From: Acidobacteriota bacterium
GTDB lineage: Bacteria > Acidobacteriota > Vicinamibacteria > Vicinamibacterales > SCN-69-37
NCBI GenBank assembly: GCA_947467605.1
Contig: CANIII010000008.1
Coordinates: forward strand, 62,001-126,000
Direction: 5' to 3'
Length of the DNA: 64,000 bases
In this document: positions 53,781-63,057 of the stretch, one piece after another
How positions within the stretch are numbered: position 1 is the first letter of the stretch
How the letters are laid out: each line of letters begins with the position of its first letter
The notes under the pieces: model-generated
Seen by the model: the letters and a program-made list of their open reading frames with translations, nothing else
Databases searched by the model: none
Told to the model about the DNA's origin: nothing
Program-made: the position numbers and the translations under genes

Positions 53781-55223
53781 ATGCCACCGCGTGTCCGCTT
53801 TGCTCCGTCACCCACCGGCTATCTGCACGTCGGTGGCGCGCGCACGGCGCTGTTCAACTGGCTCTACGCGCGGCGACACGGTGGCACGTTCATCCTTCGT
53901 ATCGAAGATACCGACATGGAACGCTCGTCAACCGACATGGTGACGGCGATCTTCGACAGCATGACGTGGCTCGGTCTCGACTGGGACGAAGGCCCGCGCG
54001 TCGGCGGTCCGCATGGGCCGTACTTCCAGACTGAACGACTCGACAAGTATCGCGCCGCCGCAGACGCGCTTGTGGCATCGGCGCACGCGTATCGCTGCTT
54101 TTGCAAGCCCGATGACCTGAAAGCCGAGCGCGCCGCCGCCGAAGCCGCCGGCCAGACGTGGAACTACGATCGCCGCTGCACGCGACTGGCACCCGATGAC
54201 ATCGCTCGCCGAGTCGCCGCGAGAGAATCGCATGCGGTTCGCTTCCTCGTCCCCGCCGGCATCACAGCCTTCGACGATCTGGTGCACGGCCGCATCGAAT
54301 TCGACAACGCCAACATCGAAGACTTCGTCATCATTCGTTCAGACACGTACCCGACCTACCACCTCTCCGTCGTGGTGGACGATGTGGAGATGCAGATCAC
54401 AGAGGTGGTGCGCGGCGACGACCACATCTCCAACACGCCCAAACAGGTGCTGCTCTATGTGGCGATGGGCGCCGCGGTGCCGAAGTTCGCGCACGTGCCG
54501 CTGATCATGGGTCCAGACAAGAAACGCCTGAGCAAACGCCACGGCGCCACGTCCGTCGGTGAGTACGAAACGCAGGGCTACCTCCCGGAAGCGATGGTCA
54601 ACTTTCTCGCGCTCCTCGGCTGGAATCCCGGCGGCGATCAGGAAGTGTTTTCACGGCAGGAACTAATCGACCGGTTCACGCTCGAAGGCATCAGCGGTGG
54701 CAACGCCGTCTTCAACCCGGACAAACTCGACTGGTTCAATCAGCAGCACATCATGCGGCTGCCGGCCGATGACGTGCTCCGTCGCATTCGCCCGGATCTC
54801 GAAGCGCTCGGCTGGTGGTCGGACGATCTGTTGTCCACGCGCGCCGACTGGATCGCGCGCGTCCTCGCGCTCATCAAACCGCGCGCCAAAAACCTGTCAG
54901 AGATCGCGCCGCAGATGCGTGCGTTCCTGAGCGACAACCTCGTCTTCGATGACGCCGCTGTGAAGAAACATCTCAGCGACCCGTCCGTGCCGGCGCACCT
55001 GCAGGCATGGATCGCCGTGCTTGAAACCACTCCGTCGTTCGACGCGGCGTCACTGGAAGCCGCGCTACGCGCACTCGCCGAGGCACGCGGGATCAAGCCG
55101 GGCGTGTTGATTCACGCGACCCGTGTCGCTGTGACAGGGCAGGGCAATAGTCCGGGATTGTTTGAAGTCTTGGAGTTGGTCGGGCGTGATCGCGTGATCG
55201 CGCGGATGCATCTACCAGCGTAA
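53781..55223 (+). CDS. gltX: Glutamyl-tRNA synthetase
   Basis: A 480-residue class I synthetase. The HIGH-type motif is FAPSPTGYLHVGGARTALFN and the KMSKS-type motif is DKKRLSKRHGA. The anticodon-binding region is C-terminal (EARGIKPGVLIHATRVAVTG). Full length for GluRS; discrimination against tRNA-Gln cannot be read from sequence. It lies 9 bp behind arsC with no strong ribosome-binding site, so part of its expression may depend on the ars transcript. Its stop overlaps the convergent gene by 12 bp. Confidence 0.96.
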   Translation: MPPRVRFAPSPTGYLHVGGARTALFNWLYARRHGGTFILRIEDTDMERSSTDMVTAIFDSMTWLGLDWDEGPRVGGPHGPYFQTERLDKYRAAADALVASAHAYRCFCKPDDLKAERAAAEAAGQTWNYDRRCTRLAPDDIARRVAARESHAVRFLVPAGITAFDDLVHGRIEFDNANIEDFVIIRSDTYPTYHLSVVVDDVEMQITEVVRGDDHISNTPKQVLLYVAMGAAVPKFAHVPLIMGPDKKRLSKRHGATSVGEYETQGYLPEAMVNFLALLGWNPGGDQEVFSRQELIDRFTLEGISGGNAVFNPDKLDWFNQQHIMRLPADDVLRRIRPDLEALGWWSDDLLSTRADWIARVLALIKPRAKNLSEIAPQMRAFLSDNLVFDDAAVKKHLSDPSVPAHLQAWIAVLETTPSFDAASLEAALRALAEARGIKPGVLIHATRVAVTGQGNSPGLFEVLELVGRDRVIARMHLPA

Positions 55224-55985
55224 GACTCTGCGCCCGCGCCACATCGGGCCCTCTTCCACAAATCGCCATTCAGGATTGCGCTCCACATCGCGCATGGCCG
55301 TCAGCGTCGCGTCGAACAACGGCAGGTCCTCGTCCTGGCACTCGAAGTAGGTAATGAAGTCCCACTCGCCAGACCGACCGGGCCCATGCGGGTTGTGGTA
55401 CAGCCGACGATAAATATGTTGCGCCGCTCCTCGACCGAGTGCCGCGTGACCCGCGACGTGGTGACCAGTCTTCGCATCATGATGCGGATAAAAGTACTGA
55501 TGCCGCTCAAGATCCGGCATCGCCCACCAGTCAGCGCTCTTGCGCATCGGCAAAATAATCGCGTTCGCCATCGCGCGGCCGTTGCCATGGGCGCGCGCCT
55601 GTTCGTACGCAAACGTCGCCACATTCGCGCTCGTGTATTGCGGCGCACGCAGGCAGCCGTCGAGTGTGTCGACGTCACCAACATCGCCGACGCGACGTCG
55701 GAGTTCCTTCTCGAGCTCATCCAGTCGTGGACGGTACCGGGAATTGGCCTGCACGGCGTACCGCGCCGGATGTGTCGGCGCCGCGTCCACGCCGACGCCA
55801 TTCAGCGACAGAAACTGCACCGTTTCCAGCGAGGGGGCATCAGAGTTTGCCCCCTCACGCTCAAAGGCGTTGAGAAACCCACGTGCCACGCCGTCGCCGG
55901 CGGCCTTCAACTTCACTCGCGTCGCGTCATCGTCGCGACAGCCGCGAACAAAGAGAAAGCGCGTATAGCCGAGATTGGGTGTCAT
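55212..55985 (-). CDS. Possible chlorite-dismutase-fold protein, function unknown
   Basis: A 257-residue protein. The C-terminal half (HHDAKTGHHVAGHAALGRGA, then GEWDFITYFECQDEDLPLFD) resembles the heme-binding barrel of the chlorite dismutase/HemQ superfamily, but no ligand His can be assigned with confidence. The N-terminus LGYTRFLFVRGCRDDD could be a barrel strand. The ATG at 55985 is chosen; the frame runs on to 56198 into the divergent glycosylase gene with non-family residues. There is no signal peptide. Confidence 0.5.
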   Translation of the reverse strand: MTPNLGYTRFLFVRGCRDDDATRVKLKAAGDGVARGFLNAFEREGANSDAPSLETVQFLSLNGVGVDAAPTHPARYAVQANSRYRPRLDELEKELRRRVGDVGDVDTLDGCLRAPQYTSANVATFAYEQARAHGNGRAMANAIILPMRKSADWWAMPDLERHQYFYPHHDAKTGHHVAGHAALGRGAAQHIYRRLYHNPHGPGRSGEWDFITYFECQDEDLPLFDATLTAMRDVERNPEWRFVEEGPMWRGRRVLRW

Positions 55986-56035
55986 CAGTACTTTTGGCGC
56001 CCCTGCGCGTCCTCCGGTTAAGCTGCTATCGGTCA

Positions 56036-56713
56036 ATGACTCGGACTCCTGCAAAGAAGCGCCCGGCGCCTGTGCAATCGCGTGCAACCACGCGCAGCAG
56101 CAGTCCAGCCGAGACATTTGAGACCGCCCGGCGCGCTCTGATGCGTCGCGATCCCCGTCTGGGCGCACATATAAAGAAGATGGGGTCCCGTCGGCCAAGT
56201 TTTGCTCCCAGAGACCCGTTTCACGCCCTCGTCAGGGCCGTGCTGTCTCAGCAGCTGTCCACCAAAGCCGCCGATACGATCGAGCGCAGGGTCGTCGAAC
56301 TGCTCGGCGGTCTCGAAGCCGTCTCACCCGCCGCCATGGTGGCCGTGGATCCGGTCGCGCTCCGCGCGGCAGGTGTCAGTGGGCCAAAAATCTCCTACCT
56401 GCGTGATCTTGCGGCGCACGTGATGGACGGAAGACTCGATTTGCACGGTCTCACGCACAAGACCGATGACGAGATCGTGACCGAGATCACTGCCATCAAG
56501 GGATTTGGCCGCTGGTCCGCCGAGATGTTCCTGATGTTCTGCTTGCACAGACCCGACGTGTTTCCGGTAGGCGACCTCGGCATCGTCAAGGGCGTGCAGA
56601 TCCTGACGGGCATGAAGCGACGACCGAAGCCGCGAACGATGACGCGGGCCGCGGAGTTGTGGCGACCGCATCGCTCGGTGGCCAGTTGGTATCTCTGGAG
56701 GCTGCTCGAGTGA
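56036..56713 (+). CDS. DNA-3-methyladenine glycosylase (AlkA-like, HhH-GPD)
   Basis: A 225-residue base-excision repair glycosylase. The helix-hairpin-helix reads ITAIKGFGRWSAEMFLMF and the catalytic Asp lies in FPVGDLGIVKG. The family segment FHALVRAVLSQQLSTKAADT is present. The N-terminal AlkA TBP-like domain is absent, which is common in short homologues. The first ~30 residues are basic and disordered. The stop TGA overlaps the GTG start of the kinase gene. Confidence 0.88.
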   Translation: MTRTPAKKRPAPVQSRATTRSSSPAETFETARRALMRRDPRLGAHIKKMGSRRPSFAPRDPFHALVRAVLSQQLSTKAADTIERRVVELLGGLEAVSPAAMVAVDPVALRAAGVSGPKISYLRDLAAHVMDGRLDLHGLTHKTDDEIVTEITAIKGFGRWSAEMFLMFCLHRPDVFPVGDLGIVKGVQILTGMKRRPKPRTMTRAAELWRPHRSVASWYLWRLLE

Positions 56714-59364
56714 ATAGCGACGAGACACGCATGGCGCCGTCATCGACGCCGTCGGGCCACAGCGGTTGGCTGAATTCGTCGGGCTCGGTCGATCACGGTC
56801 GATTCGCTCCGGGGACGATGCTCGACAATCGCTATCGCGTGCTTGGCTTGCTGGGCCGCGGCGGGATGGGCGAGGTCTATCGCGCCGACGACCTGCGACT
56901 CGGTCAGCAAGTCGCGTTGAAGTTTCTGCCGGAGGCACTGGCGGTTGATGCGCGTCGCCTCGCGCAGTTTCACAACGAAGTCCGCACCGCGCGTCAGGTC
57001 TCGCATCCGAATGTCTGCCGCGTGTATGACATCGGCGAAATCAACGGGCTGCTGTTTCTCACGATGGAGTACGTCGACGGCGAAGATCTGGCGATCTTGC
57101 TGCGCCGCATTGGCCGTTTGCCGGAAGAGCGTGCGATCGAAATCGCGCGACAGATTTGCGCCGGTCTCGCCGCCGCACACGAGCGCGGCATCCTGCATCG
57201 CGATCTGAAGCCCGCCAATATCATGCTTGATGGTGCGGGCAAGGTCCGCATCATGGACTTCAGTCTTGCGGCGATCGGACATGTGGAGGACGTGCGCGCC
57301 GGCACGCCGGCCTACATGGCGCCCGAGCAGTTGTCTGGGCTCGAAGTCACCGTGCGCAGCGACATCTACGCGCTCGGCCTCGTGCTGTATGAAGTGTTTA
57401 CGGGTCGGCGCGCATTCGAGGCGAAGACGATCGCGGATCTCGTCGCCCAGCATCAATCCGGCTCGATCACACCGCCAGCGCGTCTGGTGTCGACCATTGA
57501 CGATGTCGTAGATCGCGCGATCATGCGGTGTCTTGATCCTGAGCCGTCGCGCAGGCCATCGTCAGCGCTCGCGGTCGCCGCGTCGTTGCCTGGAGGCGAC
57601 CCACTAGCCGCTGCGTTGGCCGCTGGCGAGACGCCGTCGCCCGAGATGGTGGCGGCTGCTGGTGGACAAGCCGCCACGCTCAGCCTCGCCGCCGGCGTCG
57701 CCTGGCTTTCGGTCATCATCATCCTGCTCGTGGTGTGCGTCCGGATCTCTGAACGGTCATCGCTCTTCGCGCGCGTGCCTCTTGAGAAGAGCATCGATGT
57801 TCTCGCCGACCGTGCTGATGAATTGCGGAAATCACTTGGCTATACCGACCCGGTGGTGGATCACTATCAGGGATTCAGCGCAAACGCGGACTACCTGAAC
57901 TGGTCTGAGAAGAACGTAGCGGCCGCCGACCGAGACAAATACCTGGCCGCTGGCCGTCCGGCCGCGTTGCAGTTCTGGCGGCGCACCAGCCCCATGGTGC
58001 TCGTGCCCAAGAGCCCGCTGTCGTCGATTTCGCCCACCGACCCGCCGGCCAATATCAATGGCATGACCACGGTTGTGCTCGACACGACGGGTCGGCTCCT
58101 GCGATTTGAGGCCGCGCCGCCTCAGCAGGAATCGCCCGCGCCTTTGTCCCCACTGGCCACCGATTGGAACCCGCTCTTTGTGGCTGCGGGGATCGACAAG
58201 GCGACGTTTGCCGACGCGACATCGTCACGCACACCCGCGGTGTACGCCGACGAGCGTCGCGCCTGGCAGGGGACTTTTGACGGCACATCCATTGCGGTGC
58301 ACATTGAGGCGGCGTCGTATCGCGGCCGGCCCATCCTCTTTGAAATTGTCGGACCGTGGACGTCGGCCTCGCGTGATGCGAAGGCGGTTCCACGCTCCAA
58401 CAACGGCAATCCTTTCTTTATCGCGGCGCTGCTGATTGGCGCGGCGGTGGCCGGGCGCGCCAACTTGCGATCGGGGCGCGCCGATCGACGAGGCGCGTTT
58501 CGGATCGCCGTCTTCATTTTCGGCGTCATCCTCGCTGCCTGGTTCGTCGAGTTGCACGTGGGTGATCCGTCGAGCGAGCAACAGCGTTTCTTCGCGTCCA
58601 CGGGCATCGCACTCTTTCTCGGCGTCGTGCTCTATCTGATCTACCTCGGGTTGGAGCCGTTCGTGCGACGCAGTTCGCCCATGGTGCTGGTCGGTTGGTC
58701 GCGCGTGCTGACTGGCCGCGTGCGCGACGCGCTCGTCGGCCGCGACCTCCTGGTGGGCGCGGCGTGCGGCTTGCTGGTTGCGCTGTTCAATTTGTTGCCG
58801 TTCGTGTTGCCGCGATGGGTCGGTCTTCCGGAACCGTCGCCGATCTTGACGCACACGGGTGCGCTCGAAGGCGTCCGCCCGTTCCTTTCTGACTTCATTC
58901 TGGGTTTCAACAACGCGCTGCAGGGCGCGCTCATCACAGTGTTTGAATGGGTCACGTTTCGCGTCGGATTTGAACTCTTCTGGGCACGCGGTGTTCGGCG
59001 ATGGCTGCCCTCCATCCCAGCGGCATCCGAAACCGGTGTGGTGGTGCTGGCGGTGTTGTTGGTCACGGTCACCTCCGGCTTCGGTGACGGCCCGCCAAAG
59101 GCACAGGCGCTGCATGCGCTCTACGCGCTCCTGTCGACGTCATTGATCCTGATGGTCGTGCTCCGTGTGGGTCTGTTCGGCGCTGTCGTCAGTCTGCTGG
59201 TCGGGACCTACGTCAGCGACATGGCACTCACATTCGATAGTTCGCGTCTCTACGCGCCGGCGTCCCTGACCGTGATGACCTTCATCCTTGGCCTCGGCCT
59301 CGTGGGATATGCGATGGCCAGGTCCGGCGATCCGCTGACGAACCGTATTGAGAGGACGCGATGA
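56710..59364 (+). CDS. Membrane Ser/Thr protein kinase with multi-helix C-terminus
   Basis: An 884-residue Hanks-type kinase. The glycine loop GRGGMGEVY is at about 49-57, the catalytic Lys in VALKFL near 71 and HRDLKPAN at 163-170. The magnesium motif reads DFS (183-185) instead of DFG. APEQ and the SDIYALGLVLYE segment are intact. A membrane helix (about 327-350) leads to an extracytoplasmic domain, then about seven further helices to the end. The GTG at 56710 follows TGGAGG and overlaps the upstream stop. Substrates are unknown; it heads a signalling pair with the next gene. Confidence 0.9.
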   Translation: MNSDETRMAPSSTPSGHSGWLNSSGSVDHGRFAPGTMLDNRYRVLGLLGRGGMGEVYRADDLRLGQQVALKFLPEALAVDARRLAQFHNEVRTARQVSHPNVCRVYDIGEINGLLFLTMEYVDGEDLAILLRRIGRLPEERAIEIARQICAGLAAAHERGILHRDLKPANIMLDGAGKVRIMDFSLAAIGHVEDVRAGTPAYMAPEQLSGLEVTVRSDIYALGLVLYEVFTGRRAFEAKTIADLVAQHQSGSITPPARLVSTIDDVVDRAIMRCLDPEPSRRPSSALAVAASLPGGDPLAAALAAGETPSPEMVAAAGGQAATLSLAAGVAWLSVIIILLVVCVRISERSSLFARVPLEKSIDVLADRADELRKSLGYTDPVVDHYQGFSANADYLNWSEKNVAAADRDKYLAAGRPAALQFWRRTSPMVLVPKSPLSSISPTDPPANINGMTTVVLDTTGRLLRFEAAPPQQESPAPLSPLATDWNPLFVAAGIDKATFADATSSRTPAVYADERRAWQGTFDGTSIAVHIEAASYRGRPILFEIVGPWTSASRDAKAVPRSNNGNPFFIAALLIGAAVAGRANLRSGRADRRGAFRIAVFIFGVILAAWFVELHVGDPSSEQQRFFASTGIALFLGVVLYLIYLGLEPFVRRSSPMVLVGWSRVLTGRVRDALVGRDLLVGAACGLLVALFNLLPFVLPRWVGLPEPSPILTHTGALEGVRPFLSDFILGFNNALQGALITVFEWVTFRVGFELFWARGVRRWLPSIPAASETGVVVLAVLLVTVTSGFGDGPPKAQALHALYALLSTSLILMVVLRVGLFGAVVSLLVGTYVSDMALTFDSSRLYAPASLTVMTFILGLGLVGYAMARSGDPLTNRIERTR

Positions 59365-59393
59365 CGCGTTTTCACTGGACAATAAGACGATGA
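59361..59393 (+). CDS. Ten-residue bridging ORF between kinase genes
   Basis: ATG at 59361 overlaps the kinase stop (ATGA). The frame encodes MTRFHWTIRR and ends at a TGA (59391-59393) that overlaps the ATG of the sensor-like gene (59390). It could carry ribosomes from one gene to the next. No direct evidence that it is translated. Confidence 0.3.
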   Translation: MTRFHWTIRR

Positions 59394-60808
59394 CGCTGCG
59401 CCGTTCACTGATCATGGGAAGTGTGGCCGCGGCCACCGTCGTGGCAATTGCCGGCACGCTCGCCATTGAGTGGGTGCGCGCGCGTGATCGTGCGATTCAA
59501 TTGGAACGCGCCACCGCGGCAGCCATCGTGCAGCACACCCGCGAGGCGTGTGAGGCGAGCCCGAACTGGTTTCTGGCTGGTCCGCGCGAGGGTCGGCCGA
59601 CGAAGGAACAACTGGCGCAGCCCGACGCGGACGTCTTTACCCCGCGTCCCGATACCGAAGCGCGTCCGTATGAGTTCTTTGCGTATGACGAGGAATTTCG
59701 CGGCGTGAGCACGGCGGCGCCGCGATTCCCGGAAGCCTTTCGCGCGACACTGCGGCAGGGCAACGACGTCGCGACCGAGTCCTGGTCGGGCCCACTCGGC
59801 ACGGGTGTTCAGACGGCGCGATGGACGCATTGGCGCTCGAGCGAATGCGCCATCTTCCTGTTTCGCGCGGCACCGCCGCCTCATCAGGTGTGGCTGCGCG
59901 CCGGCCTGTTCCTCGGACTCTTCACGGTCGTGTTCCTCGTCTGCTTCGGCGTGAGCATGCCGACCGAGCGCCGCGCTGCAAAGATCGCTGCCGCCATGCG
60001 CGCGTCGTCGCAGAGCGAGTATGCCGGCGTGGCGCCGGCTGACGGGCACGACGAGTTGACGGCGATTGCCGCAATCTTCAACGAGGCGGCTTCGAGCATT
60101 CAGCAGCGATCGACGGAGATCAAGGAGCAGCAGGAGGCCCTGCGCCGCATCAGCACTGACACGAGCGATGACCTGGTGAAACCGCTCGCCGCGGTGCCGG
60201 CGCGGATCGGCGATGTGCTGCGCTCGGTCAGCGTCACGCCGGCGGTGCGCGATCAAATGCAGGCGGCGCTGCGCGACGCCAAGACCGTTGAACATCGCGG
60301 CGCCAACCTCGTCACCGCACTGCAACTGCGTGACCGCGAGACCAGCGTTCAGTCAGCGCCCGTTGATCTGACGGCGCTGGTGCAGCGGGTGATCGAGCGA
60401 GAATTCGCGTTTGCCAGCGCGTGTGGCGTGCCGCTTTCCGGCACGGTGCCGGACCAGCCCGTTCAGGTGACGGGTGATCCGCAACTGTTCGAGCAGATGC
60501 TCGTCAACCTGATCGACAACGCTATCCGCTACAACAAGCCGGGCGGCACGGTGGCCGTGGACCTCGACGCGCCCTCGAAGGGACACTTCGTATTGCTCGT
60601 CAGTGATGACGGTGTTGGGGTCAACGAGGCCACGCTGAAATACTTCAACAGCATTCGACGCTTCCGCGGCGATGAACGGCGTAAGCATCGTGTGGATGAA
60701 GTCGGTCTTGGCCTCGCCATCGTGCATGAAGTCACAGGTCGGGCGAAGATCGCGCTCGCGTTCCGGCGCCGCGACAACGGCGGGTTGGAAGTGAGGCTCA
60801 GCCAGTAA
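59390..60808 (+). CDS. Sensor-histidine-kinase-like protein lacking the phosphoacceptor His
   Basis: A 472-residue membrane protein. It has a helix at about residues 5-28, a periplasmic sensor to about 178, a second helix (LRAGLFLGLFTVVFLVCFGV), a HAMP-like and coiled segment, and a GHKL ATPase domain. The N box (NLIDNAIRYN), G1 (DDGVGV) and G2 (VGLGLAIVHE) are intact. Where SHELRTPL is expected it reads SDDLVKPL (259-266), so Asp260 replaces the phosphoacceptor His. No response regulator is adjacent. It may bind ATP and signal allosterically, perhaps with the upstream Ser/Thr kinase. Confidence 0.82.
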   Translation: MTLRRSLIMGSVAAATVVAIAGTLAIEWVRARDRAIQLERATAAAIVQHTREACEASPNWFLAGPREGRPTKEQLAQPDADVFTPRPDTEARPYEFFAYDEEFRGVSTAAPRFPEAFRATLRQGNDVATESWSGPLGTGVQTARWTHWRSSECAIFLFRAAPPPHQVWLRAGLFLGLFTVVFLVCFGVSMPTERRAAKIAAAMRASSQSEYAGVAPADGHDELTAIAAIFNEAASSIQQRSTEIKEQQEALRRISTDTSDDLVKPLAAVPARIGDVLRSVSVTPAVRDQMQAALRDAKTVEHRGANLVTALQLRDRETSVQSAPVDLTALVQRVIEREFAFASACGVPLSGTVPDQPVQVTGDPQLFEQMLVNLIDNAIRYNKPGGTVAVDLDAPSKGHFVLLVSDDGVGVNEATLKYFNSIRRFRGDERRKHRVDEVGLGLAIVHEVTGRAKIALAFRRRDNGGLEVRLSQ

Positions 60809-60837: not shown

Positions 60838-61455
60838 GTGAAACGGCGAACTATTCTGCGGATGGCCGGCGCACTGGTGGCGTTGCCGCCGGTCGCGCGG
60901 TTGCGGGCCGCCGCGCAAGCGCCTTCGCCGGTCGCACCCTTCACTGACGATCAGAAAGCCGCACTCTCCGCCATCGCCGACGTCGCTCTGCCCGTGTCGA
61001 TTGGCGCTGCCGGACGCACGGCCGCCACCGACCGCTTCATCGCGTGGCACCTCAACTACAAGGCCAGCGCCGACATGGGCCACGGCTATGGCGCGTCGAC
61101 GCTTCGACCGCCATCACCGGCACCAGTCCTGCCGCGTTACGCCGCGCAGTTCACGGCGCTTGATCAGGCCGCGAAGGCGCAAGGCGCCATGTCATTTGCC
61201 TCGGCCTCTGCAGTGATTCGTCGCGCAATCGTCGAGACCGCGCTGAATACACCGCAGCCGGTGAATCGCATGCCCGCGCGCCCAACCGGCGCCAACCTCG
61301 TCGCCGATTTCATGGGCCTGTATTTCAACAGCGCCGCCGCCTTCGACGAGGCGTACAACAGCGCGATTGGTCGAGACCGCTGTCGAGGTCTCGACGGCTC
61401 GGACCAGGCGCCTCCGCCACTGGCCGCCCGGCGCACAAGCGCCACGGAGCGCTGA
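60838..61455 (+). CDS. Gluconate 2-dehydrogenase subunit 3-like protein
   Basis: A 205-residue protein with a twin-Arg-like signal (MKRRTILRMAGALVALPPVA). The mature part (FTDDQKAALSAIADVALPVS) is typical of the small subunit paired with secreted GMC dehydrogenases. It precedes the GMC gene by 3 bp and probably escorts the flavoprotein through the Tat system. The last ~25 residues look atypical and low-complexity. The start is a GTG. Confidence 0.75.
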   Translation: MKRRTILRMAGALVALPPVARLRAAAQAPSPVAPFTDDQKAALSAIADVALPVSIGAAGRTAATDRFIAWHLNYKASADMGHGYGASTLRPPSPAPVLPRYAAQFTALDQAAKAQGAMSFASASAVIRRAIVETALNTPQPVNRMPARPTGANLVADFMGLYFNSAAAFDEAYNSAIGRDRCRGLDGSDQAPPPLAARRTSATER

Positions 61456-61458
61456 CGC

Positions 61459-63057
61459 ATGCAGCGCACACCAAACACTGTCATCAACGCCGACTACGTG
61501 ATCATCGGCGGTGGCATCACCGGCGCGCTCGTCGCCCAAAAACTTTCTGAGAAGAAACCACGCGCCTCAATCATCGTCGTCGAAGCCGGCAACGCGCTGT
61601 TCGACGCGGAGAATCGCTACAAGTACCGCGCGCGCAACCTCGACTACAACGAGAATATGTGGCCGGGCGACTACATCGCCGATCAGGCGCCAGACGGGAT
61701 GATCTCGCGCACGATGGCCGTCGGCGGATCAGCACTCCACTGGGGCGGCGTGTGCAATCGGTTCTCGGAAGAAGACACGCGGTTGAAATCGATGTACGGT
61801 CTCGCCGTTGATTGGCCGATCGAGTGGAAAGAACTCGAGAAGTACTACTGCGAAGCCGAGCGTCGCATCGGTGTATCCGGCGAGCCAAGTCCACTGAAGG
61901 AAGACTGGCGCAGCGAGCCGTGCCCGATGCCCGCGATGACGTCCACGTTCAACCTGAAGCAGCTCAAAAGCTGGGCCGAGCAGAGCGGGATTCCATTCTG
62001 GACGACGCCGCAGGCGAAGAACACGGTGGATGGTTACAACGGACGCAACAAGTGCGTGCGCTGTAACACCTGCGAGATCTGCCCTACCGGCGCGCGTTAC
62101 TCGCCCGACTGGACGTTTAAGCAACTGACCGCGGACAAGAGCCGCAACGTCACGCTGCACTCAAACCGATTGATTCGCAATCTGGTGCTCGGCGACACGA
62201 CCTCGCGCATCGTTGCAGCGGAGGCCGTTGATGAAACATCGGATGCCGGCCACTACACGTATCGCGCACCCACGTTCATCGTAGCGTCCGGGTATACGTG
62301 GGCATCGCACCTGCTCCTGTCGTCCACAAGTGCACGATTCCCCAATGGCCTGGCCAACAAGACGGACCAAGTCGGCCGGTATATCAACGGCCACCTCGCC
62401 TATCAGACGCAGATGGATCTGGACCTGAAGATCTATCCGGGAATGAACGAACAGCACAGCCTGATGTCGCGCCAGTTCTTCCGCTGCGCCACTGACACGC
62501 CGTATGTCCGTCACGATCTGCGTGTCTGGGAAAGCGCGAGCGGCCGCGATCCGCGGCTTCGCGATGCCGCCGGCAAATTGCTGTTGGGCGACGATGTGCT
62601 GAACGACTGGCGCACACGCACCAACCGCGGGTCCGCGCGTGTGCGTGGCTACTTCACCGTCGAGCCAGACAAAGACAGCCGCATCACGCTGGACGCGGCG
62701 ATCACGAACCGCTGGGGCGATCCTATGCCGCGTGTGCGCCACAAGATCGATGCGGCCAGCGAAGCGCGCGCGGGCGCGACCCGCCAGCACTTTGAGCAAC
62801 TGTTTGCTCAGATGGCCAAGGCCAACGACGGCAAGATGGGCGGCGTCAGCGGCCTCAACTATCAGGACCATCCGGCGGGCGGCTGCCGCATGGGGACCGA
62901 CCCGGCGACAAGCGTTGTTGATTCCTACGGCCGCACGCATGATCACGAGAATCTGTTTGTGGTTGGTGCGCCGACGCTGCCGACTGGTGGTTGCACAAAC
63001 GGCACGCTCACGTTTGTGGCTGTGGCCCTTCGTTCTGTCGACGAAATCGCAAAATAG
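61459..63057 (+). CDS. GMC-family flavin dehydrogenase (gluconate dehydrogenase-like)
   Basis: A 532-residue FAD oxidoreductase. The FAD fold begins YVIIGGGITGALVAQKL. The second FAD segment GAPTLPTGGCTNGTLTF and the catalytic-region DHPAGGCRMGTDP are present. A Cys cluster, CVRCNTCEICPTGARYSP (near residue 198), recurs in the gluconate/sugar dehydrogenase branch. It likely oxidises a sugar or polyol in the periplasm with electrons going to a cytochrome; none is encoded nearby. The stop abuts that of the convergent gene. Confidence 0.88.
   Translation: MQRTPNTVINADYVIIGGGITGALVAQKLSEKKPRASIIVVEAGNALFDAENRYKYRARNLDYNENMWPGDYIADQAPDGMISRTMAVGGSALHWGGVCNRFSEEDTRLKSMYGLAVDWPIEWKELEKYYCEAERRIGVSGEPSPLKEDWRSEPCPMPAMTSTFNLKQLKSWAEQSGIPFWTTPQAKNTVDGYNGRNKCVRCNTCEICPTGARYSPDWTFKQLTADKSRNVTLHSNRLIRNLVLGDTTSRIVAAEAVDETSDAGHYTYRAPTFIVASGYTWASHLLLSSTSARFPNGLANKTDQVGRYINGHLAYQTQMDLDLKIYPGMNEQHSLMSRQFFRCATDTPYVRHDLRVWESASGRDPRLRDAAGKLLLGDDVLNDWRTRTNRGSARVRGYFTVEPDKDSRITLDAAITNRWGDPMPRVRHKIDAASEARAGATRQHFEQLFAQMAKANDGKMGGVSGLNYQDHPAGGCRMGTDPATSVVDSYGRTHDHENLFVVGAPTLPTGGCTNGTLTFVAVALRSVDEIAK

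Follow-up and report, generated by a model that had tools for sequence, protein, structure and literature searches.

Sensor kinases that have lost the phosphoacceptor histidine are uncommon but already known. The residue is missing in 722 of 76,471 HisKA domains (0.9%) (PMC12632262), Asp is among the substitutions listed for it (PMC5361649), and few His-less HisKA kinases have been studied so far. In HisKA kinases, an acidic residue (E/D) one position after the His (+1) is required for kinase activity, and a Thr or Asn at +4 is required for phosphatase activity (PMC3510030). DivL carries a Tyr instead of the His, has neither kinase nor phosphatase activity, and binds the phosphorylated regulator DivK~P (PMC4211667). 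In RetS of Pseudomonas aeruginosa, a membrane sensor, the kinase core is catalytically defective yet able to affect another kinase through contact.

Here, we describe a clade of pseudo-histidine kinases that adds to these cases. One member is encoded in the window, as we call the whole stretch of 64,000 nucleotides of Acidobacteriota DNA that was analyzed. Like DivL of Caulobacter crescentus (Tyr550), it combines the HisKA/HATPase fold with a replaced phosphoacceptor His, and kinase or phosphatase activity is not expected of it. Unlike DivL, which has PAS sensors, weak ATP binding, DivK~P as its regulator, and CckA as its target, the pseudo-kinase has an extracytoplasmic sensor, an Asp (variable among orthologs) at the phosphoacceptor site, and intact ATP-binding motifs. 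It resembles RetS in being a membrane sensor with a defective core, although in RetS the G boxes rather than the His were lost and receiver domains are present. The same TM-sensor-TM-HAMP-DHp-HATPase architecture, with two invariant Cys residues in the sensor, is found in a sister group of His-bearing (His+) OmpR-type sensor kinases (G000:C6, G013, G027, and G028), from which the pseudo-kinases differ in having neither the His nor a neighboring OmpR-type regulator.

Gene and domain organization

The frame encoding the pseudo-kinase likely starts with the ATG at 59390 and is organized as follows.

59390..60808, + strand: pseudo-histidine kinase gene, 472 aa plus stop (translation, HATPase_c 3.9e-15, orthologs)
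59405..59467, + strand: transmembrane helix 1, about residues 6 to 26 (hydropathy scan)
59477..59884, + strand: extracytoplasmic sensor domain, about residues 30 to 165, ~135 residues (hydropathy, conservation)
59888..59962, + strand: transmembrane helix 2, about residues 167 to 191 (hydropathy scan)
59960..60124, + strand: HAMP-like linker, residues 191 to 245 (Pfam HAMP, below cut-off)
60125..60343, + strand: degenerate DHp (dimerization/phosphoacceptor) domain, residues 246 to 318 (alignment, not Pfam HisKA)
60167-60169, + strand: Asp260 codon GAT at the phosphoacceptor-His position (alignment; +1 acid is D261, +4 is K264)
60344..60805, + strand: HATPase_c catalytic/ATP-binding (CA) domain (Pfam and motifs)
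60506-60535, + strand: N box NLIDNAIRYN, complete, inside HATPase_c
60605-60622, + strand: G1 box DDGVGV, complete, inside HATPase_c
60656-60676, + strand: F-box-like motif, inside HATPase_c
60704-60730, + strand: G2 box GLGLAIVHE, complete, inside HATPase_c

The HATPase_c domain reached 56.7 bits in Pfam against a cut-off of 26.4 (E value of 3.9e-15), with all motif residues present. HisKA gave no match in the Pfam search, even at an E value of 10, and the DHp was detected only by a profile made from kinases of the same genome and related ones. Single-sequence AlphaFold prediction yielded a pLDDT of 43, too low for a confident structure model of the protein.

Loss of the phosphoacceptor histidine

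Positions 60155-60190 encode TDTSDDLVKPLA within the 472-aa protein. In the phmmer comparison to PDB entries 2c2a, 3dge, and 5uht (E value of 7e-12), which spans residues 255 to 449, Asp260 aligns with the phosphoacceptor His260 of T. maritima HK853. This alignment, together with that to kinases of the same genome, confirmed the first-pass annotation, which had read an Asp at the phosphoacceptor position beside intact N, G1, and G2 boxes. Within this genome, 30 HATPase loci were fetched, and the 27 other HATPase-bearing proteins with a recognizable DHp all keep the His. By contrast, none of the 12 full-length orthologs has it. The column reads D (window), D, N in the window's own genus; D, D, E in three other genera; and A, S, A, T, A, A in the genus designated g2. 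As the His is missing in 12 of 12 orthologs, its absence is beyond chance and is not a sequencing quirk. The Asp itself is not conserved, a point that the first-pass annotation had marked for checking, and for that reason, it is not the working residue. The same annotation had named a conserved His elsewhere in the dimerization helix as an outcome that would refute it; the 12-ortholog alignment has no such column across the DHp helices, and a shifted phosphoacceptor was rejected.

The +1 acidic residue is present (D261), while the +4 phosphatase position is K264 in the window and K, K, V, Q, R, E, E, E, E, E, A, A among the orthologs, with T or N in 0 of 12. Three of the four His+ sister kinases lack the Thr at +4 too, which means that the pseudo-kinases are not alone in having lost it. 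The earlier view that the protein cannot act as a normal histidine kinase is thus supported by a His gone from all 12 orthologs, by the lack of an alternative His column, and by the missing +4 residue.

Phylogeny and origin

The ortholog set was obtained by whole-genome search within one bacterial family and comprises 11 further full-length, stop-free copies (36 to 73% identity) in 11 of the 13 other genomes, covering all five genera. The gene is absent from the complete relative G008, where it must be dispensable. A single-protein scan of an 84,980-species collection, run with strict search patterns, returned only two distant Sphingomonas kinases. Maximum-likelihood analysis placed the 12 His-less proteins in a single clade (support of 95/96), with the four His+ kinases as its sister group (88/93), and both groups together are supported at 100/100. 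The window's genome itself encodes one sister member, the paralog G000:C6. Most simply, the His would have been lost a single time and never regained, with the replacement residue left to drift. Judged by its sequence, the protein is a pseudo-histidine kinase, clearly descended from histidine kinases, with the His replaced and the gene kept by selection (see below).

An OmpR-type response regulator adjoins the His+ sister kinase at all four sister loci, and a cluster of YHYH, MORN-like, and SCO1-like genes lies near each of them. YHYH, MORN-like, and SCO1/SenC-like genes were seen beside the sister kinase and its regulator at L037, L054, L055, and L056, which come from four genomes that belong to three families. 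With two invariant sensor Cys residues and SCO1/SenC-like neighbors, the His+ sister system is possibly a copper- or redox-responsive two-component system. At L113:10041-11093 (G011:C20), a His+ sister kinase beside a SCO1-like gene is reduced to its last ~126 residues, as if the sister system were undergoing loss there.

Selection and domain-wise conservation

Within the genus trio, dN/dS was 0.18 to 0.26 overall, a rough estimate given that synonymous sites are near saturation. To compare domains, a second His+ kinase with orthologs in the same genomes was used as the control, the first candidate having orthologs in the genus only. Sensor identity was 0.37 to 0.50 for the pseudo-kinase versus 0.45 to 0.48 for the control. 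In contrast, DHp identity was 0.16 to 0.30 versus 0.72 to 0.74, and CA identity was 0.34 to 0.39 versus 0.52 to 0.56. Across the 12 orthologs, 58 residues are invariant, 27 of them within residues 30 to 162, and C54 and C153 of the sensor are invariant both in the orthologs and in the His+ sisters. The DHp helices are full length in the window's genus. The genus g2 proteins have a hairpin that is about two dozen residues shorter, along with erosion of the N box and of the second Gly of G1. Outside g2, all four genera retain intact ATP motifs, with the exception of one G1 Gly in G005. On the strength of these comparisons, the pseudo-kinase is under purifying selection, with normal conservation of the sensor and a collapsed phosphotransfer domain.

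Genomic context and the upstream Ser/Thr kinase

The genes that surround the pseudo-kinase in the window are the following.

53781..55223, + strand: gltX (glutamyl-tRNA synthetase), conserved further upstream
55883..56713, + strand: HhH-GPD (AlkA-like) DNA glycosylase gene (alkA), upstream neighbor of the pseudo-kinase at 12 of 12 loci
56710..59364, + strand: membrane Ser/Thr protein kinase (STK) gene, DFS for DFG (Pfam, translation)
60838-61455: Gluconate_2-dh3-like gene, in this genus beside the GMC oxidoreductase gene
61459..63057, + strand: GMC oxidoreductase gene, recurrent downstream neighbor

Both gltX and alkA precede the pseudo-kinase at all 12 loci, with gltX off the contig end in G002; alkA of the window was identified by Pfam and coordinates. 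The GMC oxidoreductase gene is often found downstream among these loci. Using one sister OmpR-type regulator as the query, no homologue was found at the 12 pseudo-kinase loci. The window also has a gene on the - strand (55215-56198) between gltX and alkA, which is likewise present in G010 and G012 and not in most other relatives.

The STK frame (901 codons; Pfam protein kinase, 4.5e-51; membrane helices) likely starts with the GTG at 56710, which overlaps the alkA stop and agrees with the N termini of STK relatives. It ends 25 bp before the ATG of the pseudo-kinase, in the same direction, and a scan for a promoter or terminator between the two genes gave nothing above chance. The DFS motif that had been noted in this kinase is indeed present (MDFSLA, 57253-57270), and HRDLKPAN and the catalytic Lys are retained. 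The motif is private to the window, since DFG is found in three full-length relatives (53, 47, and 43% identical) and in every other STK whose motif could be read; the activity of the window's STK is uncertain.

The first-pass annotation had described the two genes as coupled and suggested that both may form an unusual signaling unit. As stated, this is not supported, because an intact STK adjoins the pseudo-kinase in this genome only and at none of the 11 other loci. In both other genomes of the genus, the pseudo-kinase comes immediately after alkA, and 10 of the 12 loci are without any trace of an STK. G012 has a 64-aa N-terminal remnant of the same STK subfamily ~10 bp downstream of the pseudo-kinase. 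In this ORF, at L049:9007-9537 (- strand; G012:C160), the first ~70 STK residues (up to GRGGMG) run on in frame into the C-terminal end of an amidohydrolase, a fusion that was probably left behind by a rearrangement or stems from the assembly.

Functional interpretation

The protein is probably a membrane receptor with an allosteric output that arose from the duplicated sensor kinase of an OmpR-type pair, became separated from its regulator, and lost the His once. The ordinary sensor kinase of such a pair would have been duplicated, and the duplicate would have parted from its response regulator and lost the phosphoacceptor His at the base of the family. As read from the sequence, it would no longer autophosphorylate or pass phosphate on, nor, given the loss of Thr/Asn at +4, would it dephosphorylate a regulator. 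The extracytoplasmic sensor domain is probably the reason for its retention. Most likely, by analogy with DivL, ligand binding would reshape the pseudo-kinase dimer, and a partner protein would read the change through direct contact. A shape-change output is suggested by the nearly intact ATP-binding domain and the full-length dimerization helices in the window's genus and three others. The sequence evidence for this explanation consists of the clade-wide loss of the His, the +4 loss, a His+ sister that retains its regulator, purifying selection, sensor conservation, and intact ATP motifs; we infer that the pseudo-kinase lacks phosphotransfer and that it would bind ATP, dimerize, and signal allosterically.

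A more specific form of this explanation, and not its opposite, is that the protein, like DivL, senses or sequesters a response regulator in its phosphorylated form or, like RetS, inhibits another sensor kinase, a reading that we hold only tentatively. It shares the fold class and the kind of lesion with DivL (PDB 4q20 is among the sequence matches, with an E value of 3e-6), inhibition of one kinase by the catalytically defective core of another is known from RetS (PMC5992135), and the full-length DHp helices of the window's genus fit either role. However, the pseudo-kinase has neither a receiver domain nor an adjoining regulator, most genomes that carry it lack the His+ sister pair, and its poorly conserved DHp surface (the 0.16 to 0.30 identity given above) is unlike a constrained docking face. 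Less probable still is that the gene is decaying and heading for loss without a present function. The progressive erosion of the DHp and N box in genus g2 and the missing gene in G008 point that way, but full-length, stop-free copies in 12 genomes of five genera, the low dN/dS, and the normal conservation of the sensor make decay quite improbable. As for Asp260 acting as an alternative phosphoacceptor that forms an aspartyl phosphate, the intact ATP-binding boxes and the D or E found in five of the six orthologs outside g2 would suit it. Yet a same-genus ortholog has N and the g2 proteins have A, S, or T while the rest of the protein is maintained, and to our knowledge, no HisKA kinase transfers phosphate from ATP to an Asp. 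The candidate was rejected for lack of conservation and is hardly credible.

It also seems unlikely that the pseudo-kinase and the upstream STK act as one signaling unit in this species, with the pseudo-kinase as regulatory partner or substrate. The genes are codirectional and closely packed behind alkA, and two of the five known members of the STK subfamily abut a pseudo-kinase gene (the window and the G012 remnant). These two contacts, on opposite sides of the pseudo-kinase, are suggestive but fall short of a conserved unit: the G012 copy is truncated, the remaining loci carry no STK, and the three other full-length STK relatives show no kinase partner alongside in the locus listing. Any such unit would be restricted to this species. 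We regard as very unlikely the further proposal that a histidine-kinase-derived receptor, sensing outside the cell, has turned into a regulatory subunit (or substrate) of a eukaryotic-type membrane STK. If true, an STK-regulating pseudo-kinase would unite both of the main kinase systems of bacteria in one hybrid.

Returning to the receptor with an allosteric output, the erosion of the DHp hairpin, the N box, and G1 in genus g2 implies that the molecular output may differ between lineages. The clade combines a single loss of the His, a His+ sister that survives with its regulator in the same genome, a graded erosion of the ATP site, and a constrained sensor, and these features make it a usable series for asking what sensor kinases do without phosphotransfer.
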